The notes under the pieces: model-generated
What the model saw: the letters and a program-made list of their open reading frames with translations, nothing else
What the model was told of the DNA's origin: nothing
The model's database searches: none
Shown here: piece after piece, positions 11,812 to 42,377 of the stretch
Layout: every line of letters begins with the position of its first letter
Position numbering within the stretch: position 1 is the stretch's first letter
Position numbers and translations under genes: made by a program
Assembly (NCBI GenBank): GCA_021373255.1
Contig: JAJFTD010000199.1
Coordinates: 64,611 to 128,610, forward strand
Length of the DNA: 64,000 nucleotides
Reading direction: 5' to 3'
Source: a bacterium
GTDB lineage: Bacteria > Armatimonadota > UBA5829

Positions 11812-14800
11812 TTAATCTCTAGCATTACTGTTAGGAATCAGTTGCTGTAAGTGCATGCAGCTGGATCCCAGGACCTCATTAGCGAGATCAACAATGTGCT
11901 TATGATGAGTGAAATACAGCACCTGTGTCTTCTCTGACAGTTGCGCGAGCGTATTGAGAGCTGCGCCTGCTCTTTCGTCGTCGAACTCGATCAGTATGTC
12001 GTCTAGGATCAGGGGCAGTACCACTCCGTTCTTGATATGCTGCTCAAGGCTCGCTATTCTCAACGACATGTAGAGCTGATCGCGGGTGCCATCGCTCATT
12101 CCACTCACATCTACCGTCGTGCCACTAGGGCGGACTCCCACTATCACCTGATTGCCTTTTGTTGTATGCTGGGTGTCCACGCGTTGGAATGAGTTGAGCG
12201 TCAGTATGGGGAAAACCTCACTGGCTCGGGTCAGCACAGGATCCTGATTCTCTCTTTGATACCGTTCTATCTCCATACTAAGTATCTCTGTAGCAAGGTG
12301 CAGAGATACATAGCGTTCAACCGCGGACTTAGCTACAGCGAGCGCACTCTGGGCGTTCTGGACTTCGGTGGCAAGATCATCACTTCGATCAAGATTGGCT
12401 AGAGCAGTGCTTTTCTCACCCCGCTCATTGCTGAGCTCGTCTCGCCTGCAGTCGAGATCCTCCATCTTTTTGACCAATCCAGCTATTAAGCCAGCGAGCT
12501 CATCCTCACTGACGTCAGATAACTCCTGAACAAATGCTTCTACACTGGCGCCAGATGAGTAGACCGTCAGTTTCTCATCAAGCTCTTTCCTCTTGCTGTC
12601 TAGCTCGTAGTAATCCCTCGAGTCTTTAGCGGCTATCGATAGCAAGTCTAGGTTTTCGCAACTGGTTTCGTCGGCTAAGGCAGCGAGTGCTTTCTCGGAC
12701 TCATCTTGAATAGCCTTCGCGGCGGTGAGCTGTGACTCCAATAGACTTAGGCGAGCCTTATCCTCTGCAGCTTGTTGAACCTTGTCCTGAAGCGTGCGTG
12801 CTGCTTCGCCAGCATCAATACTCACCAGTTCAGTCATCTGAGTGTTGGTGATCAACTTCGCTACGTCCGACTCGAACTCCGAAATAGATGTCTGCATCAG
12901 CTCCACCCGGGACCGGCATTCATCAGCTTGTCGGATTTCACTCCCGAGATCCTTAAGGATGGTCACAGTATCTATGACCTCTTTCGCCCGCGCGATGAGA
13001 TCCTGGAGCGTAACATCCTCCGGCGCATTGCTAAATTCCATGCCAGATAGTTCATTTTTCAGGAGCACTTTATGGTTCTTGATTACCTGTTCCATATCGG
13101 AGAGCTCTGTCTCTTTTTCACCGATGTCACTGCAGATCCCGGCCAAATTTCGATGTCGCTGTAGCCATTCCTGCATCTCCGCAGGCGTGAGTGGTTCGTC
13201 AATTCCTACCGGTTTCCATTGGGCTGCCCAATCCGCAGTCTTCTTCTTGCGCCGAGTCTGCAGTTCTAACAGGTCACCCCGAAGCTGCCCTAGCTCCTCG
13301 TCTGCTCTGGCCGAAGCTGCTCTTAGCTCTGCCAGGCTAGCCACACGTTCTGCCTCACGTCTCAAGCGGTCTGACGTTTCATCGGCTTTCCCCACACTAA
13401 GCTCGTAGGCTTGATCGAGAGGATGATCCAGATCGAAGTCCCCTGAGTCCTCAGATACATCTTCCGAGTCGAGCCAAGCCCGCCGAATCAACTGCCAGCC
13501 GTATTCCCGACGCTGGCGATCTTCTATCAAGTCATTCTCAGACGGCACGGTCTGTGCCTGGATGAATGCGCTTATCTTCTCTTGGCACTGCGCGCGATTC
13601 TTCTCAGTGCTATCGATATCACGCTCGATGTCTCTGACGGCACTTTCGATCTCCGAAAACTCCCTGGAGAACCGGCTAATGGTCTCATCGAGCGGCACCG
13701 GCAGTGCTACAACATGCTCTAGCTTTCCGCTCCAAAGCGTCAGGGACGAAAGCGCCGTTTGTGCCTGCGCCTTGAGTTCCACTATCTTTGTTCGCGCCCG
13801 TGATGCCGATTGCTCGATCTTACCTTCACTCGAAGCGGCTTCGGCCAGTAGCTTCAGACCGGCACAGCCATTGGTTGGGTGCAGCATTATGGTCTGCACT
13901 GGCTCTTCCACACCGAAGTGCTGCTTCAAAAATGTGGCGATGACGGCCCGTTCGCTGCTATCAATACACGTAAATCCCGAATTCTTGATCAGATTCTCAG
14001 CGCCACATTCTTGGATAAGCTCTTTTGCTCTTGACTCGTACTTATTCTGATCTTTTGCAACCTTGGGTAAATCGTCCTGCGCAGCCTCGTATTGTTTCAA
14101 CCTGCCTTGTATGCTTATAACATCATCTCTGTGGGTAGCCAAGCGATCAATCAGAGTAGAATCGGGCCATCGATTCCTGATCTCGCGCTCACGCTCAACT
14201 AGGCGATCCTGTTCTGCCACCGCGTCAAGGCGTTTTTCATTGTCGCGCTGATACTGCTCGATCTGAAGCTCCGTGAGGATGTGTTTTGCCAGAAGCTCCG
14301 ACAAGCACTGAATGGCGGCACCGCGCTGTGAAGCTAGAGGGAATGCCTTCTGATATCGCTCATAGCGGGCTTTCTTAGCGACGCAACTTTCGTATTCCGC
14401 TTTTGTCTTTGCGAACTCATCCTCAATCCTATTTATCTCTTCTGCCAGCTTCTGCCATTCTCTTGGTCGCACCGAGAGATCACTAACACTCTTCATGGAC
14501 TCCTTGTAGCGCTTCATCGCGGCATTGATTGATGGGTTCTTCGCAGTGGCTCTGGGAGAGAAAATCACTTCTTTCTCCTTCTGTAATTCCTCCAGAATCC
14601 CGCGCAAACCAGTTATTCCCATTCCGGCTTGGAACAGACTCTCAGCCAGGTCTCCCTTGCCTTCTTTGAGATCACGTCGGCCTTCAAGCAAGGTGTGGTA
14701 GTCGAAGCCAAACATTGTAGTGAATGCGTTTTGTTGAATGCCGCACAAGTATGCAGCAAGGACTCCCTCATCCACTAGCTGCTGATTCGAATCGAGGAGC

Positions 14801-15078
14801 GTTGCTCTGTTACCCTTTCTTCGGATGAATGTAGCTACATCTCCGCTAAGATTTTCTAGACACGCCGTGAGGCGCATATCTTCATACGAGTAGAGGAATC
14901 CATCCTGCGTCTGAGCCGGGATGCCATACAGCATGTTCACAATAGCACGCAAGGCTGTGCTCTTCCCTGCCTCGTTGGGTCCATAGATGATGTGCAAATC
15001 TTGAGATCTATCGGAGAAATCGAGTAGTTGTTTCGCGAAGCAGCCGAAGCGCTCGATTTGGAATGTCTGTATCCTCAT
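11812..15078 (-). CDS. YhaN/SbcC-like SMC-type AAA ATPase
   Basis: Protein of 1088 residues with the layout of YhaN and other SbcC/Rad50 relatives. It has an N-terminal half-ATPase with Walker A GPNEAGKS, a very long coiled-coil centre rich in E, K, R, Q and L, and a C-terminal half-ATPase with a signature segment (GMSDGTRDQLY) and Walker B LILDDIL. No C-x2-C zinc hook is visible in the coiled coil, which fits YhaN rather than Rad50 or SbcC proper. The start codon abuts the stop of the upstream nuclease gene, so the pair is co-translated. Family knowledge suggests that the ATPase opens and closes around DNA and controls the partner nuclease at DNA ends. Confidence 0.85.
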   Translation of the reverse strand: MRIQTFQIERFGCFAKQLLDFSDRSQDLHIIYGPNEAGKSTALRAIVNMLYGIPAQTQDGFLYSYEDMRLTACLENLSGDVATFIRRKGNRATLLDSNQQLVDEGVLAAYLCGIQQNAFTTMFGFDYHTLLEGRRDLKEGKGDLAESLFQAGMGITGLRGILEELQKEKEVIFSPRATAKNPSINAAMKRYKESMKSVSDLSVRPREWQKLAEEINRIEDEFAKTKAEYESCVAKKARYERYQKAFPLASQRGAAIQCLSELLAKHILTELQIEQYQRDNEKRLDAVAEQDRLVEREREIRNRWPDSTLIDRLATHRDDVISIQGRLKQYEAAQDDLPKVAKDQNKYESRAKELIQECGAENLIKNSGFTCIDSSERAVIATFLKQHFGVEEPVQTIMLHPTNGCAGLKLLAEAASSEGKIEQSASRARTKIVELKAQAQTALSSLTLWSGKLEHVVALPVPLDETISRFSREFSEIESAVRDIERDIDSTEKNRAQCQEKISAFIQAQTVPSENDLIEDRQRREYGWQLIRRAWLDSEDVSEDSGDFDLDHPLDQAYELSVGKADETSDRLRREAERVASLAELRAASARADEELGQLRGDLLELQTRRKKKTADWAAQWKPVGIDEPLTPAEMQEWLQRHRNLAGICSDIGEKETELSDMEQVIKNHKVLLKNELSGMEFSNAPEDVTLQDLIARAKEVIDTVTILKDLGSEIRQADECRSRVELMQTSISEFESDVAKLITNTQMTELVSIDAGEAARTLQDKVQQAAEDKARLSLLESQLTAAKAIQDESEKALAALADETSCENLDLLSIAAKDSRDYYELDSKRKELDEKLTVYSSGASVEAFVQELSDVSEDELAGLIAGLVKKMEDLDCRRDELSNERGEKSTALANLDRSDDLATEVQNAQSALAVAKSAVERYVSLHLATEILSMEIERYQRENQDPVLTRASEVFPILTLNSFQRVDTQHTTKGNQVIVGVRPSGTTVDVSGMSDGTRDQLYMSLRIASLEQHIKNGVVLPLILDDILIEFDDERAGAALNTLAQLSEKTQVLYFTHHKHIVDLANEVLGSSCMHLQQLIPNSNARD

Positions 15079-16341
15079 CTATGCCTCCTTTCCCAGCAGA
15101 CGTGAGAGCAACAACTGCTTGACCTCAGGAAGTGCTTCAATGACTACCTGAGGGTCTGAGAGGCTGATTGGGTCATCTCCGTTTCGGAGTTCTAGGGGTA
15201 GCTTCGACTCCAACTCAGCCAGTCCACTCAGCAGCCTCTGCTGAAGCTCCGTTGATTGGGCCACCTGGGATACGGAATCCAGTAGTTCATTCCACTGCTG
15301 AGCATCTTCGCCGCTGTCCGGGTCTTCGGTTAGCATCTTCACTTTCTCGATCCACACTTGGTCAGATAGAGCGTCGGCGCATATCTGGTTGGTCCATCTC
15401 TCACTGTCTGAGCACAGTGCCGAGTGCGCTGCGCACGCACCCCGGATTTCAACTCTTAGGGCAAGTAGGTGTTCTGGAGCCTCGGCCTTTTTTGCCTCCA
15501 CCTCTTGCTGAACTCGATGAAGAATCTCCTCTGGAGTTACTGCATCGGCTGCATCCACAATGCATCTATACCAGCGGACCACGTCCAGGTCACGATGCTC
15601 GACAGCGGTTATCTCGCCGTCCAGTGCCGTAACTACCGTGCATCCCTTGGGCCCTGTTTCGCGGGCGTGACGGCCCTGGGTGTTGCCAGAGAAGACAACC
15701 CATGGCGATAAACCGCTGTGATCCTCAGGCCTGCATACTTCCTGTCTAGTATGGATGTGTCCCAATGCCCAATAATCGTAACCTTTGGCTGCCAGATTAG
15801 TGGTGCTGCACGGAGCGCATTCATCGTGGCCTGAATAGCCAGATGCACTGGTGTGTAAAACTCCGATGTTGAGCATAGCGGGAATTGCATCTGGATAGCC
15901 GCTGGCAAGATCCGTTGCCACTCCACGGCTTGCGAAGCTCTGACCGTGGATGGCGACCCCTATATCATCGAGAACCTTGGTTTCGGGGCGGCTCGGGGAA
16001 AATACAGTAACGTTGGGTGGTAGTTTGAGGAGTTTCGTGATTTGGCTCTCGGCATCGTGATTACCTCGAACAACAAAAACTGGAACGCCAGCTTCTTGCA
16101 GAATCGACATTTGCTTGGCGAAGAATAGGCCGGTGCTGTAATCCCGCCAATCTCCATCGTACAGGTCACCGGAGATCAAAACAAAAGCGATCTCTTCGCT
16201 AGGATCAGCAGCAAAGTTGACAAGGTTTTCTAATGCGCGGCGAGTGGCTCCACGAATATCTTCGACAGGTGCCCCTTCGTAATACGCCAGGCCGCGAAGA
16301 GGACTGTCGAGATGAATATCAGCGGCGTGGATGAATCTCAT
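15079..16341 (-). CDS. YhaO/SbcD-like metallophosphoesterase (Mre11-type DNA nuclease)
   Basis: Protein of 420 residues. The calcineurin-like metal-binding motifs appear in order: AADIHLDSPL, ISGDLYDGD, RGNHDAES, VLHTS and ALGHIHTR. These are the two-metal active-site motifs of Mre11/SbcD-type nucleases, and DIHLDSPL is typical of the YhaO branch. The C-terminal 150 residues probably form the capping and ATPase-binding regions. The start at 16341 has an AAGGAGG ribosome site 9 bases upstream. It forms a two-gene unit with the YhaN-like ATPase, the expected nuclease-ATPase pairing, and would process DNA ends or hairpins. A 545-base gap upstream suggests a separate transcription unit from the SNF2 helicase. 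Confidence 0.88.
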   Translation of the reverse strand: MRFIHAADIHLDSPLRGLAYYEGAPVEDIRGATRRALENLVNFAADPSEEIAFVLISGDLYDGDWRDYSTGLFFAKQMSILQEAGVPVFVVRGNHDAESQITKLLKLPPNVTVFSPSRPETKVLDDIGVAIHGQSFASRGVATDLASGYPDAIPAMLNIGVLHTSASGYSGHDECAPCSTTNLAAKGYDYWALGHIHTRQEVCRPEDHSGLSPWVVFSGNTQGRHARETGPKGCTVVTALDGEITAVEHRDLDVVRWYRCIVDAADAVTPEEILHRVQQEVEAKKAEAPEHLLALRVEIRGACAAHSALCSDSERWTNQICADALSDQVWIEKVKMLTEDPDSGEDAQQWNELLDSVSQVAQSTELQQRLLSGLAELESKLPLELRNGDDPISLSDPQVVIEALPEVKQLLLSRLLGKEA

Positions 16342-16886: not shown

Positions 16887-19574
16887 TTACTGTTCCGAGC
16901 GTGGCCATAGTAATGCCACAATATCAAACCTCGGATACTTATAGCCGTGATCGAGCCTGCTTATCTCTTCTGCTAGAAATCGCTCAGCTGCATTCAGAGT
17001 GTCTTCCACAGCAGGCGCTGAGATACTCGGCGCACTTGCTAAGCTCTGCCTTCCCCTTGGCAACGCGTTAAGCTTAAGTAATAATTCCCAATCAAGCAAA
17101 AGCCTGTATGAACTTTCGCTTTCACATTCAACAGCAGCAACGATAGCTCGACACGATTTGTGGCCTGTAGTAACTCGGTCCTGTATCCGGAACACGACAA
17201 CTGGCAGCGGCAGTAGTTCTGCTGGAATGGTGGTTGCTGAGACTTGCCTAGAACTAGCCTGGTTTAGAGCTGCATTGAGAGCCCTATGGCCAATCCCTAG
17301 GATCTCACTCCTGAGCTGTTTGGATCGATTTTGTCTGTCTACTGAGAAGCCTCTATACTCGCTTGGTACAAGTGGATCATTCTTGCGCCACTCGTCAGGA
17401 GTCAGAAAAGATAACTCGCCTGATTCATCTCTCAATCGGCGGCCATTTAGGGCTAGAGACATCTCAAGAAATGGCCTTAAGTCAGGCAGATCTACCCTGG
17501 GAAGCAAAGGAGAAACATTCTGGTAATCATACTTGCTTACGTTGCCGGTGATCTCCTTGACTGCCCGCACTACATCATCACCGCCAAAGGTGGCAGTCTT
17601 GTCGTCGAACCATTCAGACAAAGAATCCCGCTTCACGTTTGCTGCTTCTGAAAACACCTCATTGAAGAGGGACGGCGAAGTCATACCCAGAACGAGTTGG
17701 AGGAGGTCCTCTGGCTCCTCCATTACCAGCCCAAGCGCCCTCGATATCCGCTCTAATTTCTCGTTAAGCTTCTCCCATATGAGTGACTCTACGGTATCCG
17801 GATTCCTGAAGCTCATGACCTCAACTCTGTGTTTCTGTCCGTATCTGTTGAGTCGACCTACTCTCTGGTGTAACCGCATCGGGTTCCACGGCAGGTCAAC
17901 GTGGATTAGAGTGTGGCACTGCTCCTGAAGGTCGATGCCCTCACCGCCAGCCTCCGTTGAAATGAGGAACTTGACACGCCCGGCGTTGAAAAGGCTTGCG
18001 GCCTCCTCTCTGCTTGTGACCACAGACCTAATTGTACCGTCCGGGAAAATGACTTCTTCTGCACGTTCGTCACCATTAATGAATGTCACGCATCCGGATC
18101 CGTATTCCTTTAGGAGCGCCGTCATCAGCAGTGACTGCGTCGCTTTATACTCGGTAAAAAATAAAACCTGTTGTCCTTCACACCGTTCTCTGATTATCTC
18201 TACAATGGACTTTATCTTCGTCTCATTATGGATCTTATCGGCCGCGGCAATCAGTTCATCGAGAAAAGGTGCTTCGTTCTCCATTAGACGTAAACCTGAA
18301 GACAATGATGCGATCTGTTCCTCTAGAGTCGCAACCACATCTCCATCTGCATCTGGATCGCTGAGCATGGCCATTTGGTCTTTGAGCAACGCAAGCCGGT
18401 GTTTTCCAGCGGTCAATCTTTCTCTTCGCCCTCGGAGTGCCCGTCGGACAGCTGCTACAGAGCTTGATGCTAGCTTCTGCATGGCAATGAGAACCAGTAC
18501 AACAGCGCGACCTTCCGTACTTTCCAAACCCGAGGCATAAGCCCGTCCGGTAGCAATAAACTCGGTCAACAGCTCGTAGAAGCGCGCTTCTTCTGGGTTA
18601 TAACTGTAGGTGTGGCTAGTGACCAACGGCTTCTGGAAGAGTTTCTTGCCCGTCAAATCAGTAACTCCGCTCTTATTGTTGCGTATCATCACATCAGGCA
18701 GATAACGCATCTGCTCCAGAGGTGGCTTCCGCGGGTCAAACCAATCTGGCTTGAGTAGTTGCAGTAAAGAGAAGAAGCCATAGTTTTTCCCTCGATGCGG
18801 AGTGCCAGTGAAGAATAGCATCGATCTAATGAGCTTTCGATCTTGCAGTTGCCTTATAAGCTTGTAGGAGAGAGTCGGTCCAGCGTGCTCGTCGTTATTG
18901 AGATGATGCGCCTCGTCGACTATTACCAGATCCCACGGTTCAGCTTCCAGCATCCGCTGCAGGCGACCATTCTGGTCCATCCGCAGAGTGTGTATAGAAG
19001 CAACTACACGATCATGGGTTTGCCAGAAGCCACTGCGCGGACCATCCTGCTCGCTGCCATACATGGCCATTCGGATGTCGAACATCGTCCGCATCCTATA
19101 TTGCCACTGCTCGACAAGCGAAGCCGGGCATAAGATTAGCAAACGATTCACGACCCCCTTAGCCAGGAGCGGCCACAGAATCATGCCAGCCTCAATCGTC
19201 TTACCTAATCCTACGTCATCCGCTACCAGCCAACGTGTCGGCCAGATGGAGTTGACTTTTCGACATACCCAGAGCTGATGTGGGAGTAGCTCAATTCTGG
19301 ATACCGAGAACACCCCCCAAGTATCATTCACAGATGTGATGCAGTCCGCTTGGATCTTATTAATAACCTCTAGAGGCACGTCCCATGATTGGCTGAGAGC
19401 TTTCGACAGCGGGCCTTCTAGTAACCGTAGTTCTTGCTTCTCACATTCCTCAATACCGTGGATGAAGCGCACGATCACTGTTGGCCCATTGTCCTGCACT
19501 ACGGTCCCGGACCCGTATCTCGAGTGTTGGACCTTGTCGCCTGGAGATAGTGTAGATGTTGTTTCGCTGGTCAA
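16887..19574 (-). CDS. SNF2/RapA-family DEAH helicase
   Basis: Protein of 895 residues. After an N-terminal beta-rich segment that starts PGDKVQHSRYGSGTV (a Tudor- or CarD-like fold is possible), it carries an SF2 SNF2-type motor: ADDVGLGKTIEAG (Walker A), VDEAHH (Walker B), FTGTPHRGKN (motif III) and, in the second lobe, STEAGGEGIDLQ and RVGRLNRYGQKH. The C-terminal 250 residues have no motif I know. The start is a TTG at 19574, placed 7 bases after GGGGAGG. It overlaps the stop of the upstream GHKL gene by 4 bases (TTGA), so the two products are made together and probably act together. It resembles the SNF2-like helicases of several defence systems (for example DrmD of DISARM), but no other DISARM gene is present. 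Confidence 0.85.
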   Translation of the reverse strand: MTSETTSTLSPGDKVQHSRYGSGTVVQDNGPTVIVRFIHGIEECEKQELRLLEGPLSKALSQSWDVPLEVINKIQADCITSVNDTWGVFSVSRIELLPHQLWVCRKVNSIWPTRWLVADDVGLGKTIEAGMILWPLLAKGVVNRLLILCPASLVEQWQYRMRTMFDIRMAMYGSEQDGPRSGFWQTHDRVVASIHTLRMDQNGRLQRMLEAEPWDLVIVDEAHHLNNDEHAGPTLSYKLIRQLQDRKLIRSMLFFTGTPHRGKNYGFFSLLQLLKPDWFDPRKPPLEQMRYLPDVMIRNNKSGVTDLTGKKLFQKPLVTSHTYSYNPEEARFYELLTEFIATGRAYASGLESTEGRAVVLVLIAMQKLASSSVAAVRRALRGRRERLTAGKHRLALLKDQMAMLSDPDADGDVVATLEEQIASLSSGLRLMENEAPFLDELIAAADKIHNETKIKSIVEIIRERCEGQQVLFFTEYKATQSLLMTALLKEYGSGCVTFINGDERAEEVIFPDGTIRSVVTSREEAASLFNAGRVKFLISTEAGGEGIDLQEQCHTLIHVDLPWNPMRLHQRVGRLNRYGQKHRVEVMSFRNPDTVESLIWEKLNEKLERISRALGLVMEEPEDLLQLVLGMTSPSLFNEVFSEAANVKRDSLSEWFDDKTATFGGDDVVRAVKEITGNVSKYDYQNVSPLLPRVDLPDLRPFLEMSLALNGRRLRDESGELSFLTPDEWRKNDPLVPSEYRGFSVDRQNRSKQLRSEILGIGHRALNAALNQASSRQVSATTIPAELLPLPVVVFRIQDRVTTGHKSCRAIVAAVECESESSYRLLLDWELLLKLNALPRGRQSLASAPSISAPAVEDTLNAAERFLAEEISRLDHGYKYPRFDIVALLWPRSEQ

Positions 19575-22500
19575 ATCCAATCCTCCCCGCCACTGTTATC
19601 GTAAAGATCGAGTCTACTTCGCAGCTCAAGATCGTCAATTCTGTCCACCATCTGGAACGGGATGTCAAACGAATTACAGAACGTGCCATCGCCAAGGAAG
19701 GATTCTGCTCCATCGTATATGGCTCGCGATGCGAGTTCGTGCGGGCAAGCAAAGTCGACCGTTATGCCGGAGTAATTGGCAAGCCTTCTGACTCTGGCGC
19801 TGGGAACGTAGCACAACGGCTCCAGCTTCTCATTCGCTATAACCCCTTTACGCACCAGTTCGCGTAGCACGAAATGTGCTCCAATGCCCAAGACATCCTT
19901 AATCGGCGGGGAATCCGGATCCCCTGGACCAAGACTGGAGTTGATCCTTGGAGCAACGATTATATCCATTGTGTGATGCGCCAAGTGAGGGGCCATTAGG
20001 AATGACCGCGCATAATCGCCAAGCCATTTTGATATCAGGAACATGGGCACGAACTGCTTGATCCATTGGAAGTATTCGACACGCTGCGCTTGCCGGTCAA
20101 TGTAGCTCTGGATCATTCGAACCAGAGCCTCAGGAACATCCGAAGTCGCCGCTAGTTCCGAGATCCAGCCATTTCGTTTGCACAGATCAAGAAAGCCTCT
20201 GTGCTGGCGGGGCTTGCATCGGCCCATCGTTTCTAGAGATCCCCGGAGAAGCAGCTCTAACCATGTTTCTCGCTCCTCTTGCGAATCGCGATAGTCTCCT
20301 TTTAAATTGGCGAACAGCCAATCAGGGTCCGGGTAAGTCTGCTTCTCGTACTCACGCAACATCTGTTTGCCGCAATCCTGCCACCACGAGTACATGCGCA
20401 TAAGTAGATCTGGTGAGCCAACCATCACGCTACTGATTGCCCCAGAACCAGGTGACATTTCTTCAATGTCCATGTCTAGTTCAGCCTGCAATCCGATTGC
20501 CTGTTTTCGGGTAAGCTCAGAGAAATAGCCGGAGTGCGGGTCATCGAGCCAGGTGCTATCCCGCTTTGAAGCTGCCAATTCGCGAACTCTCAGAGCAAGC
20601 TCACCGCGACTCATGTAGGCGATGAATGCCTTTCTTGACTGATCGCTCTGGGCTTGCAGCCCCCACTCGACAAGTTTCTCCGCTGGTGCAGTCATGGCAC
20701 GACGACAGCAGAGAAAGAATGCGACGCCGTGTTCGTCGTAGGACGTGCTTAGGAGATGACTTGCGGGAGCGAAGGCCGCACGCAAAGACTCTTCTTCGTG
20801 TTCAGCTGCACTCTCGACCAAGACATCTGTGCACGCACGCATAAAGCCATCCTGTGTCTCGAACTTTAGTAACTTCAGGTAGTTCTTCAGATCATCCAAT
20901 TCCTTCGAATAGTCATGTCTGTTTGGATGACGTTCGCGATTAAAAAGGTCCTCATTCACGAGCATCCCAAGCGAATTCGCCACTATGGGCACAGCCTCAT
21001 TGCGAGCACGAAGCGCTGTGGTAACCACATCGGCCAACATCGTTGTCGCTATGGCCGGCATACGACTGGATACTCTTTGCAGCCCATCGGCGATGGCTTC
21101 TGATACCGAGTTGCCAGGAGCTATTCCAACATCATCCAACAAGTGCAGTTCCCAGCATCTCTGAAGAATGTTTTCGGTTCGCAAAACGCCGCATATGATT
21201 CGTCTGATCTCAGAGATTCCCACTAGACACTGGAACTTGCCTTCTAACCCGCTTGGAACTGCTGATCTCGTATGTAGCAGCAGAGACATCCCGAATCCTT
21301 CGGACCAGATGATATTCCTCAAGATTCCGTTTGGAGATTGGCCTCTGTCGTCGACAGTGCAGTTTGCGGAGGAGGTCAATTGCCAAAGACTATTCCAGAA
21401 GTCGTATTGACCACATTGGGCATCAAGGCTCATTGCTGATCTGAAGCCATCCCAGTCACTATTCGAAAAGTCAAACAAATTAAGAAGTGCTCTTCCCAAT
21501 GCGTCGCCTGCTTCTGCTGCTGTGTTTGATGTAGTTTCTGAATTGCACGACAGTCTTGCCCGACCGACGTCCAAGCCGAAATTGCCATTTACTGCGATTC
21601 CGGCAGACAGCAGCTCGCTGGTAGGAGCAGTAACCCAGAAGGTGGGAACGTCATCAGGCAACCGAACAAATCCTGTCTTTTTTAGCCCAAACATAACCGA
21701 TGAGTTATTCTCTCCGCGTATGACAATGCATCGCATCTGCTGACCCCGATACTGCGTCAGTTCCGCTACAGCGGCCCCTGTGTTGCCGAGCTTCTGTTCG
21801 CACCACTGTAGCACCTTGTCAGCGTCCTCATCGAAGACTAACCGACAAGTGCAGATGGCACGAGAAAAGCCGATCTGGATATGTGCGAGAGAGCAGAAGC
21901 GTTCCATGACGGCCGGAGCTGTCAATTCGCCGTTTGATCGGAGAGAGATTACCGTGCCAGGCTGTGAGGTCGATTGATGGTGATTGCCAGATAGTGCCGC
22001 TCTATCCTGACTTGAAAGTCTTTTGGGATACATTCCACCGACTATTCGGCACCCAAGGTTGCCACTGCGAATGCATGGCCGGTCCGAAAACAGGAATACG
22101 CTCTTGAAGCCGAGGCCAAATTGGCCTGTGGTGTCATCGGATTCCGATTTGCTCGAGAACGACAGCACAAGCATCTTCTGGAGATCTCGATCATATCCTC
22201 GCTTCCGCGCATCATCCACGCTGATGCTAGGGAAGCGGAAAGCGTTGACAGGACGACCCCAGTGACACACGCAGATCTCGTTTCCTGTCCAGTGGAACTC
22301 AATTGTTGAGGCAAGCTCATCGTCATTGACTCCTCCGGCACTTCGGAGCTCAACTACCGCGTCGTCGGCATTTTGGAATAGCTCGAATGGAATAGACTGA
22401 GGTGAATACCGGTTGTCCTCTACGCGCCGTCTGACTGCTGTTAGAGCCTCCCGCTGAAAATCGGCGTCCTGCTCAAAGGACTGGCGCAGATCTGCTCTGA

Positions 22501-25500
22501 GTTGGATCGTTTCCCGCCTGATCTCATCCCTCACGTTTTCTGGGAGTGAATCGTGAGATGACCGGTATTGATAGGATAAGTAGCGGAGATCATCTCTTCT
22601 TTTTGCGAACCCCTTGAGCTTGCCAAGGTTGCGATCTGTCAACTGCTGGAAGTAGAACAGTGCATCATCCAGAATCATCTGCTGTGCGATCGCTAGGTCA
22701 GCCTGGTCTGTCTGAGTGAGGAGTTCCCATGTGTTGCCCAGATTGGTTGGCTCCACGCGAAACACTGTGCGGAGGATACCGCATAGCGTCTGGTAGAGCA
22801 AGTCGTGAAGCTTCGCCGGTGTGTAGCTGGCGGGGTCGATCTTCCGCAGCCGTATTCTGGCATGTACGGACTGCGCATTTCTCGTCACTATTGGGTTGCC
22901 CAAGAGTAGGTGGTCAAAGTGCTGCGTCTGCTCAACATTGATAGGATCTCCGAGCAAGTTCAAGACCATTATAGGCGATCCGGCATCCGTACACTGAAGT
23001 GATACAATGGTCGATCGCATCACCTGATGAACATCAAAAGACTCCAACGATTGGTAGTCGAGTGTCCTGCAGAGCTCTACATGGGCTACATCTCTGAAAA
23101 GATTGCGAAGTTCGGCCCTATCCTCCTCAGGCGTGGTCAGAATCAGTCTGCTAAGCTCCGTATATACCGGTGTCGTGTGTGCTTTCAAGTGCTCCTTTAC
23201 CTGATCGTTGAATCGGGCCAGCAGAGCTTCCCAAGCACCATTCCACTTAACCTGCTCTCTCAGTTCTCGAATCCGGAACCTTGGTTGCAGCCACTCAACT
23301 GCCTGATGCAAGATGGACGTTGCATCTCCTAACAATGACAGAAACAGCCCCATGACTTCGAAGCTTATCACACTGCCCCAATCGCGGAAGTATTCCAATG
23401 GAGTAACATCAGTAAGGTTCGGTTGCGGAAGTGGGACAGCCCCGGTAGGCTGTTGGGAGTAAGTAGCTATACTCATCAGAACCTGCTCGAGGATCTCGCG
23501 GTGGTTTTCGCATAACCGAGCATCGCTGTGTACTCCCTCTTCGATGGTAAGGCAGGCTGCTGGCTGCCATCTACCTGACTCGGTCTTTAACTTCAGCTGT
23601 CGAAGGTCACTTACTGAAAAGTCGCTGCACCAGACAAGGAGTCTGAGATAGTCTGCAAACACTATCTCGGCAGCAGCATCCGAGGCGGCGGGATCCTCAA
23701 GAGCGACCAGGGTTGTCAGTATCTCTCGCTTATTGATGGGACCTAACAGGTATTTTGCCAGCGACTCGGCCGCCCCAGAACCGAGAGCCGCATACACCTC
23801 CCCGAGAACTCGCAGACCAGGTAGCTCTGAATTGAGGTTCGGTAAAGCCCGAGCGAAGACTGGCGCCAGTTCTGCTCGTGCAGTCTCAAAGGGCCCGATA
23901 GCATACTCAGGAGTATTCTGCAGTACTTCGCCCAGTAAGCTAATAGCCTGTTTACCCTTGGTGAAGAACCGATCACGCAAAACGCCAAGTTGTGGGGAGT
24001 TCTCAATAGTGGTCGCCAGAAGGCGTTCGTACATAACAGGCTGACACAGACGTGAATCTGATGAGATCCGCTCCAGAACGTCCTGTATTTCCGGAATGTA
24101 GAGGACATCCTGAGGCGCAACAGGGGATCCATCACCATTCGTGGGGAGCCAAGGGCGTGATCTCACAGTCTCTGTGATCTCAGAAGGCAGTTGAGTCGTG
24201 GACAAAGTTCCCAGTGCCGCCATAACGTCCGACGCATACTGCTCAGCATGATCGACGCTAAGAGCAGTCTCGATAAGCCGTGCCGGCTCCCACATCGGCA
24301 CCAGTCTCTCGTAACGAGCCTCCAAACTTGGAAGCACCTCGATCTGGTCCACTGACCCAACAAGCGACGATGGTACTGGATAGTCCCGCACTCTGAAAGC
24401 TTGGCCCGCTACTATTGCGTGCTCTCGCCCATCTGCCGACCTATGGATAGGGATTCTTTTCCATAACTCATCGTCTCTAATTTCGGTCAACAGCTCGATC
24501 CTCTGATCTTCGTCAAGATCGAGCCCAGTCAGTATTTCCGGATCTTCCGAAAGAAGACGTTCCACAGTCTTCGGACTCAGATTCTCCAATTCCAACGCAT
24601 CCCAGCAACGTGGAGCTATCAACTGGGCAAGTTGGAATGGGATAATGCACGATACACGATCCTGCTTGCTATAGATCCACTTGATTACCACATCCCACAC
24701 GGAGGTGGAGGAAGTGGTGGCAAACAGCGGCATGTCAACTTGGTCGTAGAGATGGGTGTCGCCGTGAAGCAGATACCTAACAGCCTTGACTGAAGGCAGA
24801 TCGCTTTCAAGATCTGCAGATAGCAGCGAGTTGAGCAGATTCGCACGTTGCTCGGGAGAATTCAGGGCTGGCATTGTAGCGAGTAATGCAGAGACGTAAT
24901 GCAGGTCGAACTCCGGCGGCACTTGTCCGGCAAACAAGGCGGTGGATGCAAGGCGACTCCGGGGGTCTTCCGGCAACCTCCAAGCCTCCCATTTCTGAAG
25001 TGCTTCTTGCAGCCCCGTTAGGAGTTTCTTATCAAGATTGCCTCCAAGGATCTTCTTCTGACTGTGTAGTTCGTCTAGCTCATGCCACGTGAATGCATGC
25101 TCTTCCTGCGAACCGAGTTGCTGTGCTCTGAAAAGGCGGAAATGCCCCAATGACTGCAGTTTCTCCAGCCTCTCCCCCTTGGTTGCTCGGAGAATGATGA
25201 GTGCAAGATTGGACCGCGATGCGGTCAGATCCCCATCGGCCAGATACTCCAACAGGCTCAATGACTCGTCTATGCAAATGCCTCTGCCACCACTGTCAGG
25301 TATTGTTGGCAGGAGAATGAACGAAATGCCTGTGCGCGACATAAACGCATCAAGAGCATTGACATCAAGATCCCTTGGGCGATCCAAATCACTCACGTAA
25401 ACTTTGTACGATTCGGGTACATCCACGATTACCTGCTGGAACGCTTGATCGGCCAAGCCGACTAATCTCCCTTGGGACCTTGCAGCCTGCAATAGAGCCA

Positions 25501-27142
25501 CGACTCGATCCCAAGCTGGGTCTAAGGCCAACAATCTCTTTGCTGTTGAGAACTCATGGAAATACTGCAGAGCCTTGCTCTGGCGGAGTATCTCTGGCGG
25601 TGTCTCAGCCAAGAGAGAATTAGCATGATTTTGCCATCCTCTAGGAAGCCGAGCTGAGATTCGCGGTGATCTTCGCATCACCACCGGGATGCTGCCAGAT
25701 AGGCTGAGCAAGGCCGGGAAGAGTTCTAGGCAGGTTTCCAGCTGTTCGTAGGATCCTGGAAGACAACGGTAGTCCAGCTGTGTGCTCTCCAGTTTCCAGA
25801 CACACTTGCCACCGTTGACAACGGGCAGCAGCTGTTGTTCTTGGCAGATCTGTTGAATGTGCTCTTTGCAGAATTCCGAATCGGCTAGCGCAGATACAAT
25901 GTGGCCAACGTGAGCAGGATCCAGACCAAACTTGGTGATGGAGTCATATAGAGTGGGTAGCAGAAGCCTTGTTACGATCTGCTCTTCGATAAGCTTATTC
26001 CAATCGTTATCTGCCTCAATTCTCTTACGACCCGAATCCAGGAAGAAGCACCCGTGCAACAGCAACTCAACCGATGGGCAGATATTGCCAGTTGGTGTCT
26101 CTGCATCGTCCGAAAGCGGCAGGAATACACACTTACGGATTGCCATGCTGGTGAATGTGGCACTGTCGCGGAAGCAAAAAACGACAGCACCGTGAGGCAT
26201 CGCTTTATCTGGCACTTCTTCTGTTGTGCCATCACTTTGTATGCTTGCGCTTCTAGGCCAAGTATCTAGCTGCTTTATCTCGTCAAACCGCCGATCGCTG
26301 GATACTGCTTCTCGCCCGCAGTAGCGTATATGCGTGTGTTGTGACGACTCCTCAATCTCTACAGTTCCACAGAAATCGCGATCCTGGTCTGATTGCATCT
26401 CCGAAAGGGTACGTCGCGTCGAATCCTTGCTGAGAGTTACCCGGCACTGATCCGTCAGCTGACCATTGGCATCCCGCCAGAATGTCACTTGCCGAACGTT
26501 CTTCAACAGCGGCATCATTATCGCTATCTGGTCTGCCATGTCCGGTATGTTGATGACATCGGTATCAGGAAAATCCCGGCGGATCGCATCCCGACCGTCA
26601 AGTTGATTCTGGGTCCTTAGCGGCAGCCATAGGCAGAACCATCTGGCACATCCGTGCGGCCATTTGTCCAGATAGCTGTGAAGGTAGTCGCGATCATTGT
26701 TTTGCAATTCCCAATCATTGTGCTTTTCTAAGTCGAACCACGGGCTGACTATATCTCCAATGCGGCCATTTCTCGCCGGCTGGTTTTCCGAAAAGCTGTA
26801 TAGGAATGCCTCACACCAGTGGAAGACACTCTTCATTCCCAAGCCGAATTTACCAACTTTATCCTGATTAGCGCCCTTTGTACCGGCTCCAATATCAGTG
26901 AGTGCCTCTTCGTGCTCTGGACAGAACTCCCCATTGTTTAGCACGACAACAGCCGGGCTGCACAACATTGGATGCTCCGAGCCAGGCAAGCAAGACACAG
27001 GGGCTAGGTGGAGCTCAGTTGCGCCAGCATCATCAGCGTTTTGCACAATCTCCTTTACGACCGAGCCCTCATCGTATCGGTCACGGAGCATATTGCGCAG
27101 TTCCTGTATTCTACCGTAAGGTGACTGCTTCAGCGTCTTCAT
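19571..27142 (-). CDS. Giant protein with two HSP90/sacsin-type GHKL ATPase modules
   Basis: Protein of 2523 residues. Residues 1-300 form a sacsin-like GHKL ATPase: the N-box EIVQNADDAGAT near residue 34 and the G-loop GKFGLGMKSVF near residue 100. A second, clearly separate GHKL module lies near residues 1560-1800, with N-box ELFQNADDA at about 1587 and G-loop GQFGLGFKSVF at about 1674. About 1250 residues of helical and mixed sequence lie between them and about 700 follow; I recognise no nuclease or transmembrane motif there. GHKL ATPases of this type (HSP90, MutL, sacsin) clamp and open on ATP hydrolysis, and sacsin-like ones are recurrent in prokaryotic conflict loci. It is coupled to the SNF2 helicase downstream and lies just behind brxL. 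No good ribosome site precedes the ATG at 27142. The function is unknown; an anti-phage role is inferred from position. Confidence 0.82.
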   Translation of the reverse strand: MKTLKQSPYGRIQELRNMLRDRYDEGSVVKEIVQNADDAGATELHLAPVSCLPGSEHPMLCSPAVVVLNNGEFCPEHEEALTDIGAGTKGANQDKVGKFGLGMKSVFHWCEAFLYSFSENQPARNGRIGDIVSPWFDLEKHNDWELQNNDRDYLHSYLDKWPHGCARWFCLWLPLRTQNQLDGRDAIRRDFPDTDVINIPDMADQIAIMMPLLKNVRQVTFWRDANGQLTDQCRVTLSKDSTRRTLSEMQSDQDRDFCGTVEIEESSQHTHIRYCGREAVSSDRRFDEIKQLDTWPRSASIQSDGTTEEVPDKAMPHGAVVFCFRDSATFTSMAIRKCVFLPLSDDAETPTGNICPSVELLLHGCFFLDSGRKRIEADNDWNKLIEEQIVTRLLLPTLYDSITKFGLDPAHVGHIVSALADSEFCKEHIQQICQEQQLLPVVNGGKCVWKLESTQLDYRCLPGSYEQLETCLELFPALLSLSGSIPVVMRRSPRISARLPRGWQNHANSLLAETPPEILRQSKALQYFHEFSTAKRLLALDPAWDRVVALLQAARSQGRLVGLADQAFQQVIVDVPESYKVYVSDLDRPRDLDVNALDAFMSRTGISFILLPTIPDSGGRGICIDESLSLLEYLADGDLTASRSNLALIILRATKGERLEKLQSLGHFRLFRAQQLGSQEEHAFTWHELDELHSQKKILGGNLDKKLLTGLQEALQKWEAWRLPEDPRSRLASTALFAGQVPPEFDLHYVSALLATMPALNSPEQRANLLNSLLSADLESDLPSVKAVRYLLHGDTHLYDQVDMPLFATTSSTSVWDVVIKWIYSKQDRVSCIIPFQLAQLIAPRCWDALELENLSPKTVERLLSEDPEILTGLDLDEDQRIELLTEIRDDELWKRIPIHRSADGREHAIVAGQAFRVRDYPVPSSLVGSVDQIEVLPSLEARYERLVPMWEPARLIETALSVDHAEQYASDVMAALGTLSTTQLPSEITETVRSRPWLPTNGDGSPVAPQDVLYIPEIQDVLERISSDSRLCQPVMYERLLATTIENSPQLGVLRDRFFTKGKQAISLLGEVLQNTPEYAIGPFETARAELAPVFARALPNLNSELPGLRVLGEVYAALGSGAAESLAKYLLGPINKREILTTLVALEDPAASDAAAEIVFADYLRLLVWCSDFSVSDLRQLKLKTESGRWQPAACLTIEEGVHSDARLCENHREILEQVLMSIATYSQQPTGAVPLPQPNLTDVTPLEYFRDWGSVISFEVMGLFLSLLGDATSILHQAVEWLQPRFRIRELREQVKWNGAWEALLARFNDQVKEHLKAHTTPVYTELSRLILTTPEEDRAELRNLFRDVAHVELCRTLDYQSLESFDVHQVMRSTIVSLQCTDAGSPIMVLNLLGDPINVEQTQHFDHLLLGNPIVTRNAQSVHARIRLRKIDPASYTPAKLHDLLYQTLCGILRTVFRVEPTNLGNTWELLTQTDQADLAIAQQMILDDALFYFQQLTDRNLGKLKGFAKRRDDLRYLSYQYRSSHDSLPENVRDEIRRETIQLRADLRQSFEQDADFQREALTAVRRRVEDNRYSPQSIPFELFQNADDAVVELRSAGGVNDDELASTIEFHWTGNEICVCHWGRPVNAFRFPSISVDDARKRGYDRDLQKMLVLSFSSKSESDDTTGQFGLGFKSVFLFSDRPCIRSGNLGCRIVGGMYPKRLSSQDRAALSGNHHQSTSQPGTVISLRSNGELTAPAVMERFCSLAHIQIGFSRAICTCRLVFDEDADKVLQWCEQKLGNTGAAVAELTQYRGQQMRCIVIRGENNSSVMFGLKKTGFVRLPDDVPTFWVTAPTSELLSAGIAVNGNFGLDVGRARLSCNSETTSNTAAEAGDALGRALLNLFDFSNSDWDGFRSAMSLDAQCGQYDFWNSLWQLTSSANCTVDDRGQSPNGILRNIIWSEGFGMSLLLHTRSAVPSGLEGKFQCLVGISEIRRIICGVLRTENILQRCWELHLLDDVGIAPGNSVSEAIADGLQRVSSRMPAIATTMLADVVTTALRARNEAVPIVANSLGMLVNEDLFNRERHPNRHDYSKELDDLKNYLKLLKFETQDGFMRACTDVLVESAAEHEEESLRAAFAPASHLLSTSYDEHGVAFFLCCRRAMTAPAEKLVEWGLQAQSDQSRKAFIAYMSRGELALRVRELAASKRDSTWLDDPHSGYFSELTRKQAIGLQAELDMDIEEMSPGSGAISSVMVGSPDLLMRMYSWWQDCGKQMLREYEKQTYPDPDWLFANLKGDYRDSQEERETWLELLLRGSLETMGRCKPRQHRGFLDLCKRNGWISELAATSDVPEALVRMIQSYIDRQAQRVEYFQWIKQFVPMFLISKWLGDYARSFLMAPHLAHHTMDIIVAPRINSSLGPGDPDSPPIKDVLGIGAHFVLRELVRKGVIANEKLEPLCYVPSARVRRLANYSGITVDFACPHELASRAIYDGAESFLGDGTFCNSFDIPFQMVDRIDDLELRSRLDLYDNSGGEDWI

Positions 27143-27487: not shown

Positions 27488-29518
27488 CTAGACTTCCACT
27501 GCCTTCATAAGCGCCCGATCAGGATCACCGTAGAATACTACATCCATTTTCTCCACGACCTCTTCGGGCAGAGCGGTGAACTGAGATTTGTTAGCAAGTG
27601 GCACCAGAACGCGAAGTGCACCATTATCGAGACCCAGTTGCAGTGGCTCAGTGATTGAGGTTGCTCCTTTAATGTTCCCCTGGATTGTCAAATCGCCTAA
27701 AATCATAGTCCCAGCTTGTATCCTGCGATTCTGGACAGCTGACATAATCGCAGCATAGAAGGCAACTCCGCAAGCACATTCAATTCTTCCACCACTCAAG
27801 TCAACAGCTTCTGCCGATATATCTTTCTGTGCAAGGATTTCCACTAGGCCCATCCGCTCCTTTGCAGTTTGCAGATAACTAACAGCTCTGTTGAGCGATT
27901 CCTTGAGACCTTTTTCAAGTCCAGCCGGAGTTCGAACTTTTCCTGTTCCAAGACTAATTGTCACCTCTATCCGGTAGATCGCCACATTGCCATCGATGTC
28001 GACGCTTGCAGTGTATACGGTACCAGGCGGCAATGGATCTGGTGAGATAAGATTAGAACCGCCCTGCTCGGGGATACCCACACTTCTCTCGATGCCATCA
28101 TCGATATCCATGTAGGAAAAACTGGTCTTATAGAACTCGAAAGAGCCGCGTTTCTTCAGTTGCTCCTTCACGCGTCGGCGGCCTTCCATTGCCAATTCAA
28201 GATATTCGATGATCTCGGGCCTCTCGAACTCCCCGTGTGGATGTATGAGCTTTAGTAGCCCGCTGACCGTGCGCCTGATTCCGTTAGCATCACGACCTTC
28301 AACATGCGAGCCAAACCTGAATGATCTCTCGGCAGTATCGTAATGATTAAGTTTCCGCAGGCTGTGAAAAGCTTCCGCTAAGTAATCGGTCACAAATCCG
28401 TAGCCAGATGTCAAGATGTCTTTGCTGTTCTTTGGCATCTCCCAGCCAGGAAGGTAGAAGTGGAATCGGTCGATAATGGCGAGGTCGAACTCCTTGGGCA
28501 GTGGTTGGAACAGATCGGTGGCGCTGTTCTGCACCAACGTATCGACAGGTTGGTTTAGGTTGCCGACGAAACACATGGACGCATCTGCATAGACCTGGGT
28601 GATCCCGCGGCTGAACCGACCGTTGGCCATATAGTCCTTCATGATCTGAAGCGCGTCAGAATCAGAGACTCGCATGCCCCCGACTTCATCAAAGGCAACT
28701 GTATCCCAATGCCCAACAAGACCCACCTGCCGGCGCGCATTGTTGTAAAAGAGATTTGCAGTGCTGGCTTTGCCGCCGGATATCAAGATGCAGTATGGAG
28801 ACATCTCGCTGTAGACATAAGACTTGCCTGTACCACGTGGGCCGAGTTCAATGAAGTTGTAGTTCTTTTCTACCAAAGGTATCAGTCTGGTCAGTTGAAG
28901 CAGCTTGACGCGGTGCTCCATCCTGTCGGGTTCAAGACCAATACTGCGGAGCAGGACATCAATCCATTCTTCAGTAGTGAACTGCTTGCGGCAGTCAAGA
29001 AACTCGTCAAAGTCGAACCTGGCCAACTGAATGGGCTTCAGGTCATTGATGTGAAAAGGGCTACCCTTTTTGCCGTCTTCACTGGGCATATACTCAATAT
29101 CTACTATCGCCCATACCCCTCCCTCAAGGAGGCGCTCGTAGTTCCTGTAGAAATTGTCAGTGATGTGGACCTTGTTATAGCTGAAGTTATCCAGCGTAGC
29201 CCAATACTTGTCTTCGCTTGGTACAAAGCGTACTTCCACGCGGTCAATGAACCGATGATGCCCGCGTTGTTCAACCATGGACTGCGCCTTATTGGCTTCG
29301 TCATGCCTAAAATAGTTGGTGCGGAGTGTTTCTTTGACGGCATCAATACCTATTCGTATTTCATCTTCGTCGTCGGAGGCACAGTACTTGCCCAGCAGGT
29401 ACTCCAGGACGTAGGAGGGCACATTCTCTCCGCCTTTGATTTGATGCAGCAGGTCCTTGCGGACTACCTTGCCCGCACAGACCCGGCAAAGCTTTTGATT
29501 CAGTTCCGATTGCCCCAT
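27488..29518 (-). CDS. brxL: BREX protein BrxL (AAA+ ATPase with Lon-like C-terminal domain)
   Basis: Protein of 676 residues with the usual BrxL length and layout. It has an N-terminal region with a CRVC pair, a AAA+ core with Walker A GPRGTGKS near residue 227 and Walker B-like FDEVGG, and a C-terminal Lon-protease-like fold (about residues 570-676). Aligned by eye with E. coli Lon, the catalytic Ser falls on Ala in ECACGVAF and the catalytic Lys on Pro in SITEPLQ, so proteolysis seems unlikely. BrxL is known as a DNA-stimulated AAA+ ring needed for phage restriction but not for BREX methylation. The start at 29518 has an AGGAGG site 5 bases away. It follows pglZ by 12 bases, the canonical type 1 BREX order, and closes the recognisable BREX gene set. 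Confidence 0.93.
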   Translation of the reverse strand: MGQSELNQKLCRVCAGKVVRKDLLHQIKGGENVPSYVLEYLLGKYCASDDEDEIRIGIDAVKETLRTNYFRHDEANKAQSMVEQRGHHRFIDRVEVRFVPSEDKYWATLDNFSYNKVHITDNFYRNYERLLEGGVWAIVDIEYMPSEDGKKGSPFHINDLKPIQLARFDFDEFLDCRKQFTTEEWIDVLLRSIGLEPDRMEHRVKLLQLTRLIPLVEKNYNFIELGPRGTGKSYVYSEMSPYCILISGGKASTANLFYNNARRQVGLVGHWDTVAFDEVGGMRVSDSDALQIMKDYMANGRFSRGITQVYADASMCFVGNLNQPVDTLVQNSATDLFQPLPKEFDLAIIDRFHFYLPGWEMPKNSKDILTSGYGFVTDYLAEAFHSLRKLNHYDTAERSFRFGSHVEGRDANGIRRTVSGLLKLIHPHGEFERPEIIEYLELAMEGRRRVKEQLKKRGSFEFYKTSFSYMDIDDGIERSVGIPEQGGSNLISPDPLPPGTVYTASVDIDGNVAIYRIEVTISLGTGKVRTPAGLEKGLKESLNRAVSYLQTAKERMGLVEILAQKDISAEAVDLSGGRIECACGVAFYAAIMSAVQNRRIQAGTMILGDLTIQGNIKGATSITEPLQLGLDNGALRVLVPLANKSQFTALPEEVVEKMDVVFYGDPDRALMKAVEV

Positions 29519-29530
29519 CTGTTCCTCCTA

Positions 29531-32056: not shown

Positions 32057-32091
32057 TAGGAAGCTCCTAAGCTATGTGCCATTGCGCTTTA

Positions 32092-32751
32092 TCAACGGAC
32101 CTTATAATCTTTGAAACAGTCTTCCAGTCTGGATCTAAAGCGATTCTCGATTCGGGAGTTAGGCTCCAACTCCAACTGCCAATGCTTACCATGAGCCGTG
32201 AGTACCTTCGCAACAGATGGTGCTGAGGTGTTGCTAATGAGACTACAGAAACCATAGTTAAGCTCGGCAGATAAACCTAGAAATGAACGTCCAAGGGATA
32301 GGCCCAGCGGAGTTGTGTAGTATTTGCACTCAGCAGATGCTACCACCTTGCTGCATCTAGGATGGCCGCCTCTGCGTGCCGTATCTGCTTCCTGAGACTC
32401 GAGAATAACGACATCACATTCATGCGCAACATTCGACCGGCCAGACACGTAAACGCCCAAGTGGATCTCAAGTTCGGGAACTGGTCCTGGAAACTGGATA
32501 GTCGCATAAGTGTAAGAATGTGTCGTCGAGTATATGGCACCAGGAGATGTTCGAAAGACTACGCCTGCAGAGGAGCTTACCGGATGTTTACGAAGGGTAA
32601 CAGTTCCTCCCTCATTTCGTGCAGCCTCTACAGCCAATGCAAATATATAGGCTTCAAATAGGTCGCAAGGTAAGGCTCTTGACCGATATCGGGCTGCAAG
32701 AGGTGCCAACCGCTGCTCAATGGATTGGACTAGATCATTTACCGTCGCCAT
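32092..32751 (-). CDS. PD-(D/E)XK nuclease-like protein embedded in the BREX operon
   Basis: Protein of 219 residues with no name I can give. It shows the core of a PD-(D/E)XK fold: an N-terminal helix with E33 (FEAYIFAL), strands with E95 (ELEIHLGV), D113 (ECDVVIL) and E141-C-K143 (ASAECKYY), then a helix-rich tail. D113 and E141-x-K143 are spaced and placed as in restriction endonucleases. It begins 3 bases after the stop of the small basic protein, and the GGAGGAG inside that gene's end serves as its ribosome site. It therefore belongs to the BREX transcript, between pglX and pglZ. It could be an accessory restriction effector or a modification-dependent nuclease. This role is inferred; none of the core type 1 BREX genes encodes it. 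Confidence 0.6.
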   Translation of the reverse strand: MATVNDLVQSIEQRLAPLAARYRSRALPCDLFEAYIFALAVEAARNEGGTVTLRKHPVSSSAGVVFRTSPGAIYSTTHSYTYATIQFPGPVPELEIHLGVYVSGRSNVAHECDVVILESQEADTARRGGHPRCSKVVASAECKYYTTPLGLSLGRSFLGLSAELNYGFCSLISNTSAPSVAKVLTAHGKHWQLELEPNSRIENRFRSRLEDCFKDYKVR

Positions 32752-32754
32752 ATA

Positions 32755-33243
32755 CTATATCTCCTCCCGCAATTGCGAGATCACAGCCAATAACCCACGA
32801 GCTTGTTCAGCTGCTTTGTTGATATCGCTTAAGCTCATGCCAAATTCCTCCTCAGGCCCAGTTGCGGGGATATCTTCTGCTGCTGCAGCATCACGTTTGA
32901 ATGCCAGTGCTGTGTCAGGCGATCCCAGTTCTGGCATTAAGACCTTCATCGTCTTCTCCGCCATTAATGACGGAGATACCAGTGCCTGGCTAATAGCATT
33001 TATCAGCAGTTCCAGCTTCTCTTTGTCTGTGTAAGGTATGTTCGAGAGTAGTTTGACTTTGCGTCGGCGTCCGCGCCGTCTGGTGCCATCGATCCATTGT
33101 TCGGGAATCTCCTCGACATCCTTGAGCACGACCTTTCCCTCTGCAATTGCCTCGTCCACCTCGTTGAGAACCCAGTTTAGCTCGTGTTGCCGAAGTACTG
33201 CATAGAGTCTTTCGTATGCGCCTCGCGCCTCTTCGTTTGTCAT
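32755..33243 (-). CDS. Small BREX-operon protein of unknown function, basic patch
   Basis: Protein of 162 residues, not recognised. It has a helical N-terminus, a strongly basic stretch RRRGRRRK near residue 55, the segment IPYTDKEKLELLINAISQAL, and an acidic, helical C-terminus. The basic run suggests nucleic-acid contact. It starts 2 bases after the pglX stop, using the GAGGAGGA within the pglX end as ribosome site, and is followed 3 bases later by the nuclease-like gene. The three are therefore tightly co-translated. Such placement suggests a partner, specificity factor or inhibitor for the nuclease or for PglX. No enzyme motif is visible. Confidence 0.7.
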   Translation of the reverse strand: MTNEEARGAYERLYAVLRQHELNWVLNEVDEAIAEGKVVLKDVEEIPEQWIDGTRRRGRRRKVKLLSNIPYTDKEKLELLINAISQALVSPSLMAEKTMKVLMPELGSPDTALAFKRDAAAAEDIPATGPEEEFGMSLSDINKAAEQARGLLAVISQLREEI

Positions 33244-33245
33244 GC

Positions 33246-42367: not shown

Positions 42368-42377
42368 AACGCTAATA

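Follow-up and report, generated by a model that had tools for sequence, protein, structure and literature searches.

The window, that is, the whole 64,000-nt stretch of DNA analysed here, carries on its minus strand two overlapping genes encoding a giant sacsin-like protein with two GHKL ATPase modules and an SNF2/RapA-type helicase. The giant open reading frame (ORF; 19571-27142) starts with ATG and encodes 2523 amino acids, and the helicase ORF (16887-19580), which matches the Pfam domains SNF2-rel_dom and Helicase_C, encodes 897 amino acids from a TTG start. An initial sequence-only reading had claimed a polypeptide of 2523 residues with two GHKL modules and an adjoining SNF2 helicase, and the ORFs are present as claimed; because the same architecture was found again in dozens of genomes, a chance arrangement can be ruled out. 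The four-base overlap described in that reading corresponds to a helicase start at the TTG within TTGA; with the first TTG of the frame as start codon, the overlap is 10 nt (19571-19580). Each gene is present as a single copy in the whole genome.

A BREX operon lies upstream of the pair on the same strand (27488-42893) and comprises genes for BrxE-like, BrxA, BrxB, BrxC and PglX proteins, two small ORFs, PglZ and BrxL. The BrxE-family protein that heads it (42378-42893, minus strand) scored 103 bits against a cut-off of 40, and the two small ORFs between PglX and PglZ (32092-33243, minus strand; 219 and 162 aa) had no match in Pfam, PADLOC or NCBIfam. None of the promoter consensus matches falls inside the 345-nt gap between BrxL and the giant gene, and their number around these two genes (10, against 9.1 in shuffled sequences) is not above background. 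Directly downstream of the helicase, an SMC-like ATPase (AAA_27) and a calcineurin-like phosphoesterase form an SbcCD/YhaNO-like pair (11812-16341, minus strand), and an AddAB-like unit, in which a UvrD/GajB-like helicase overlaps an AddB-like protein with a PD-(D/E)XK nuclease, occupies 4718-11439 (minus strand). Elsewhere in the window are two overlapping large serine recombinases (1009 and 769 aa; 44390-49715, minus strand), both of which end in a LuxR/GerE-type HTH, an unusual feature, and a cluster of six ORFs (49905-62233, plus strand) that is possibly another defence operon; its members include an unknown protein of 1660 aa, a coiled-coil protein that matches JetC/LmuB weakly and an ORF of 671 aa matching mad3 and mad8 of MADS.

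The giant protein matched the Pfam family SACS (PF25794; 102.7 bits, curated cut-off 32.8) and the NCBIfam sacsin ATP-binding domain (NF047352; 107.6 bits, cut-off 50), each in two stretches. Module 1 with its S5-like region occupies residues 1-400 (25943-27142; SACS match at residues 13-110), and module 2 with its own S5-like region occupies residues 1541-1990 (21173-22522), where the SACS match was found in 28/28 homologues scanned. Between them lies a long middle region, mainly helical in the predicted structure and poorly conserved (residues 401-1540; 22523-25942), and the chain ends in a helical region without a nuclease signature (residues 1991-2523; 19574-21172). The general-base residues Glu31 and Glu1587 are 1556 residues apart, in agreement with the spacing of about 1550 residues estimated beforehand. 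The two modules are homologous yet far diverged (hhalign E 1e-12, 19% identity).

Both modules retain the hallmarks of the GHKL superfamily, the motif I N-box with its Glu and Asn and the motif III G-loop, and the key positions of these motifs are invariant or nearly so in alignments of 38-40 homologues. The N-box of module 1, EIVQNADD (E31-D38; 27029-27052), has E31, Q34, N35 and D38 invariant in 38/38 sequences, and that of module 2, ELFQNADD (E1587-D1594; 22361-22384), has the corresponding residues E1587, Q1590, N1591 and D1594, with the Glu kept in 39/39, the Asn in 39/40 and the last Asp in 39/39. The G-loops follow the patterns G97-x-F-G-x-G-x-K104 in module 1 (GKFGLGMK, residues 97-104; 26831-26854; glycines and Lys invariant in 38-39 homologues) and T1672-G-x-F-G-L-G-F-K1680 in module 2 (TGQFGLGFKS, residues 1672-1681; 22100-22129; T, G, G, G, F and K invariant in 40/40). 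Both modules also retain a GR motif within their S5-like regions, and its arginine, R372 in module 1 (26027-26029; 38/38) and R1861 in module 2 (21560-21562; 40/40), is likely the Arg finger by comparison with HSP90 and MutL. The loss of ATP-site residues from both modules, which would have spoken against the initial reading, was not found across these homologues. Its description of the modules as complete-looking, each with an N-box and a G-loop, needs qualification: both motifs are there, but the canonical adenine-contact Asp of motif II is replaced twice, by Asn69 in the N-(D/N)-G motif of module 1 and by His1627 in the H-(W)-G-R-x-(I/V)-N motif of module 2, and the motif IV Thr is present in module 2 only (T1730, 40/41). 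From their sequences, the two GHKL sites are read as non-equivalent. Both modules may hydrolyse ATP; one of them may bind ATP weakly or just structurally, since module 1 has no motif IV Thr and neither module has the canonical motif II Asp.

Structure prediction of both ATPase modules, proposed in the sequence-only reading as a check, gave GHKL-type folds. AlphaFold2 models were built from 28-row alignments for residues 1-1190 (pLDDT 81.7) and 1330-2523 (pLDDT 80.6). A Foldseek search with the N-terminal half returned sacsin SR1 first (E 2.5e-8), followed by HSP90, MORC2 and SMCHD1, and the C-terminal half returned the HSP90 N-M and GyrB ATPase domains. Sacsin SR1, HSP90, MORC2, SMCHD1 and GyrB are GHKL ATPases that dimerise through the ATPase domain, and the likeness of the predicted folds to such dimerising enzymes indirectly supports the idea that the giant protein works as a clamp.

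The closest solved relatives of the helicase are RapA proteins (E about 1e-47). Its Walker A motif ADDVGLGKT (residues 120-128; 19197-19223) is conserved in at least 95% of 40 homologues at all positions but L125, and the DEAHH box (residues 222-226; 18903-18917) reaches the same level. A Tudor/RID-like segment at the N-terminus (residues 14-50; 19431-19541) rests on a weak PcrA_UvrD_tudor match (E 0.001), and the N-terminus of a helicase homologue gave a similarly weak CarD/TRCF RID-like match (E 0.03). The best PADLOC model for the helicase, PDLC02634 (1001 bits, full length), is labelled DrmD. Identity with the DISARM helicase DrmD was nevertheless rejected: the score against the NCBIfam equivalog NF038317 was 305.5 bits against a cut-off of 610, a phylogenetic tree set the pair helicases in one clade with a support of 100, apart from DrmD, and the loci L014/L094 and L022 contain a genuine DrmD in addition to the pair. 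In Paludisphaera (L094/L014), where DrmD, DrmMI, DrmA and DrmB precede the pair, the genuine DrmD scored 1055 bits against PDLC02621 and just 125 bits against PDLC02634. No DrmA or DrmB protein was found among the window ORFs scanned. PDLC02634 appears to describe the helicase of the pair and not DISARM DrmD, its label being most likely an artefact of neighbourhood. When assigned automatically, the label is consequently unsafe for these helicases, and an unrelated module may be inflating some DISARM counts.

Further evidence on the pair came from a scan of the contigs of 84,980 genomes, seeded with five pair helicases. The scan recovered 45 family loci at 42% identity or more, separated by a sharp gap from other SNF2 helicases, which reached at most 35%. 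At all 43 loci with usable upstream DNA (L032 and L034, with less than 250 nt upstream, were not counted), the giant gene lies directly upstream of the helicase on the same strand. It is mostly complete, split in cyanobacteria, fragmented in a few metagenome-assembled genomes (L030, L055) and reduced to a C-terminal remnant in L042. At 35 other SNF2 loci of the same scan, the giant gene was found upstream in none, bar two distant sister pairs. The helicase and the giant protein also have congruent histories, with mirror-tree correlations of 0.82 for helicase and module 2 and 0.79 for helicase and module 1, against a maximum of 0.33 in 2000 permutations; median identity was 47% for the helicase and 30-31% for the GHKL modules. 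Constant linkage, co-evolution and a single helicase clade bear out the earlier proposal of a discrete two-gene unit, and the pair is a real mobile, co-inherited unit. It is spread across at least ten phyla, with hosts in Desulfobacterota, Chloroflexota, Planctomycetota, Proteobacteria, Cyanobacteria, Verrucomicrobiota, Lentisphaerota, Gemmatimonadota, Spirochaetota, Acidobacteriota and Deinococcota. The pair is rare: among about 290 genomes from the window's phylum it occurs in 4 to 5, and among 369 genomes of one proteobacterial class in the seed only, and the E. coli and phage collections searched for the giant gene gave no match. In the cyanobacteria Trichormus, Pseudanabaena and Phormidesmis, module 1 is encoded by its own ORF (about 706-830 aa) and module 2 by the next one; the two ORFs either share 1-4 nt or almost abut, and in Phormidesmis the second part is fragmented further. 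The modules can thus function on separate chains, which is what a heterodimer would require. Related arrangements were seen in Verrucomicrobiota (L077:4231-12706 / L074:5527-12610), where one sister pair has a protein of 1906 aa that appears to contain two GHKL modules and the other a protein of 1443 aa whose module-2-like match is weak; each of these proteins overlaps a different SNF2 helicase (28-30% identical).

The general kind of gene pair is already known, since operons combining a GHKL ATPase of the MORC/paraMORC group with an SF2 (SWI2/SNF2) helicase have been on record since 2008 (Iyer, Abhiman and Aravind; PMC2292703). Together with the sacsin SR1 fold, they are the nearest precedents of the pair. 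In those operons too, the gene for a GHKL-S5 ATPase adjoins that for an SNF2 helicase, and the surroundings are mobile and restriction-like (PMC2292703); GHKL and SF2 helicase genes share an operon at 43/43 evaluable loci here. For the S5 region, in which MORC proteins carry the motif GhXhhpXXRhl, the comparison covered the candidate Arg finger. The MORC proteins of those operons, however, contain a single GHKL module, and endonucleases or methylases usually accompany them, whereas the present pair has two non-identical modules on a chain of 2.5 kilo-residues and lacks a constant nuclease or methylase partner. Module 1 is matched best, in sequence as in structure, by sacsin SR1/SACS (PF25794, NF047352; PDB 5v44), and module 2 belongs to SACS too; human sacsin has three such modules (PMC3710099) against two in the giant protein, which is bacterial, has a helicase partner and gave no DnaJ or conserved HEPN domain. 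In PADLOC, the best matches of both ATPase regions were to Tiamat TmtA, but they cover only residues 21-111 and 1586-1699, and TmtA models are 1063-1655 aa long and describe a single gene; with about 80-115 residues aligned per module and no full-length match, identity with TmtA was rejected. DISARM DrmD is, like the helicase of the pair, a RapA-like SNF2 helicase. VcSduA, a validated Shedu defence protein with an N-terminal GHKL domain, has a GHKL clamp, but its GHKL domain is fused to a PD-(D/E)xK nuclease and no helicase partner is described for it (PMC12137116); the pair differs in both respects. The DruE-DruH pair of Druantia III also joins a conserved helicase to a giant, faster-diverging partner with congruent trees, although DruH is unrelated to the giant protein and the helicase is of the YprA family; there the divergent partner is the sensor (PMC13192584). 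ARMADA (PMC12458937) was set aside because its gene content differs. No earlier description of the pair was found in the open-access literature that was searched, so that a prior description elsewhere is possible. To judge from that literature, the combination of a double, asymmetric, sacsin-like giant protein with a helicase clade of its own, and with no nuclease, is undescribed.

The genomic neighbourhoods of the pair bear on whether it serves the adjoining BREX operon, in an accessory or regulatory role, or is an independent system. BREX genes do occur nearby: PglZ lies within about 25 kb of the giant gene in about 8 of 35 genomes, against roughly 0.4 expected from match numbers and genome sizes. 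The window order PglZ-BrxL-giant-helicase recurs in L048 (BrxC-PglX-PglZ-BrxL-pair), the pair sits within a BREX operon in L024 (PglX-giant-helicase-PglZ-BrxL), and in L054 it follows a PglW-type BREX (PglW-PglX-BrxC-PglZ-x-pair). On the other hand, the linked BREX types vary (type 1-like and PglW type), no PglZ match exists anywhere in 17 of the 35 pair genomes, and on two Deinococcus plasmids that carry the pair, the 37 kb inspected have no annotated BREX or DISARM genes. A role as a BREX core component was rejected on these last two grounds. Elsewhere DISARM genes, class 1 among them, lie beside the pair (Trichormus, Paludisphaera, Marinobacterium and probably Treponema), at some of these loci in place of BREX. 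On a temperate-phage-like IMG/VR contig (L133, 2484-12652) the pair adjoins an integrase, in the company of RecE/RecT, a CI-like repressor and an O-like replication protein, and is possibly a prophage-borne defence cargo. The survey proposed for the pair away from BREX thus located it on plasmids, in a prophage and in DISARM islands, and its absence from other defence islands, which would have counted against the earlier reading, is contradicted by its presence in islands of DISARM and of several BREX types. Many pairs have no recognised defence neighbour in the contig sequence at hand, and no constant third gene, including a companion endonuclease or methylase, was found among the neighbourhoods compared. 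Other genes recur locally: a PDC-S68-like RecD-type protein of 1257-1274 aa (L012:12747-17313, L107:12522-19182), a 252-258-aa protein (these two loci and L013:12735-15538) and a PglZ of about 676 aa (L013:12735-15538 and L107:12522-19182). Taken together, dependence of the pair on the BREX operon is unlikely.

Other explanations concern what the pair does. It could be a restriction-like system under GHKL control, in which clamp and translocase rely on a nuclease, either one that escaped recognition here or one provided by the host. The usual nucleases and methylases of MORC/paraMORC-SNF2 operons (PMC2292703), the validated GHKL-nuclease protein VcSduA (PMC12137116) and the methyltransferases found near some pairs all fit such a system, which we consider a minority possibility given that no nuclease family or conserved motif was found in the C-terminus of either protein and that no third gene is constant. 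The helicase might instead act on RNA polymerase as RapA does, with the giant protein remodelling the transcription complex, so that foreign DNA would be silenced at the level of transcription. The structural kinship with RapA and an N-terminus resembling RNA polymerase-binding Tudor/RID domains point this way, but those N-terminal matches are weak and the helicases DrmD, BrxHI and DpdE are likewise RapA-like without known RNA polymerase binding, which leaves the idea decidedly unlikely. Membership of both modules in the sacsin SACS family would also suit a protein-quality or stress chaperone, unconnected with defence, beside an unrelated helicase. The strict coupling to SNF2, the patchy, mobile distribution and the defence-island, plasmid and prophage contexts make this highly improbable; in addition, the giant protein has no Pfam match to DnaJ or HEPN, and a sacsin-like C-terminal HEPN RNase was rejected, the R-x5-H motif (R2308, H2314) being kept in only 20/28 and 16/28 homologues.

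The pair is a strong candidate for a stand-alone two-gene defence system, with a putative antiphage output. Our preferred explanation, to which we give about an even chance, is that of a self-standing, horizontally mobile two-component module against mobile genetic elements, most likely phages, composed of a GHKL clamp or sensor and a translocase. The giant protein would be a sacsin/MORC-like GHKL machine acting as the variable sensor or clamp; the sensor role is suggested by its faster divergence relative to the helicase, by analogy with DruH of Druantia III. Modules 1 and 2 would most likely pair, either inside the single chain or, in the split-gene versions, as a heterodimer; the split cyanobacterial genes are the best, if indirect, support at hand for this pairing. 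The paired modules would most likely open and close the large helical frame in an ATP-dependent cycle, and the SNF2/RapA-type partner would be a conserved dsDNA translocase loaded onto the clamp or gated by it. With no nuclease domain visible in either protein and no constant third gene, the pair probably acts without degradation, by forming a roadblock, by compaction or by remodelling the machinery of replication or transcription; alternatively, a host nuclease may be used. A more specific version is put forward tentatively: a nuclease-free two-gene immune machine of a novel type, present in at least ten phyla and misnamed DrmD in databases, in which one chain would form an intramolecular, functionally asymmetric GHKL heterodimer (a prokaryotic sacsin/SMCHD1-like clamp) and load or gate the SNF2 translocase, so that foreign DNA is silenced or excluded but left uncut.

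In conclusion, what began as a curiosity of one window has become a gene family whose boundary is defined and can be tested, consisting of two genes, one clade and specific catalytic residues. If the pair protects on its own, it would represent an unusually large immune ATPase and provide a tractable bacterial system for studying how a MORC/sacsin-type GHKL clamp cooperates with an SNF2 motor, a question that is also open for eukaryotic silencing by MORC and SMCHD1.
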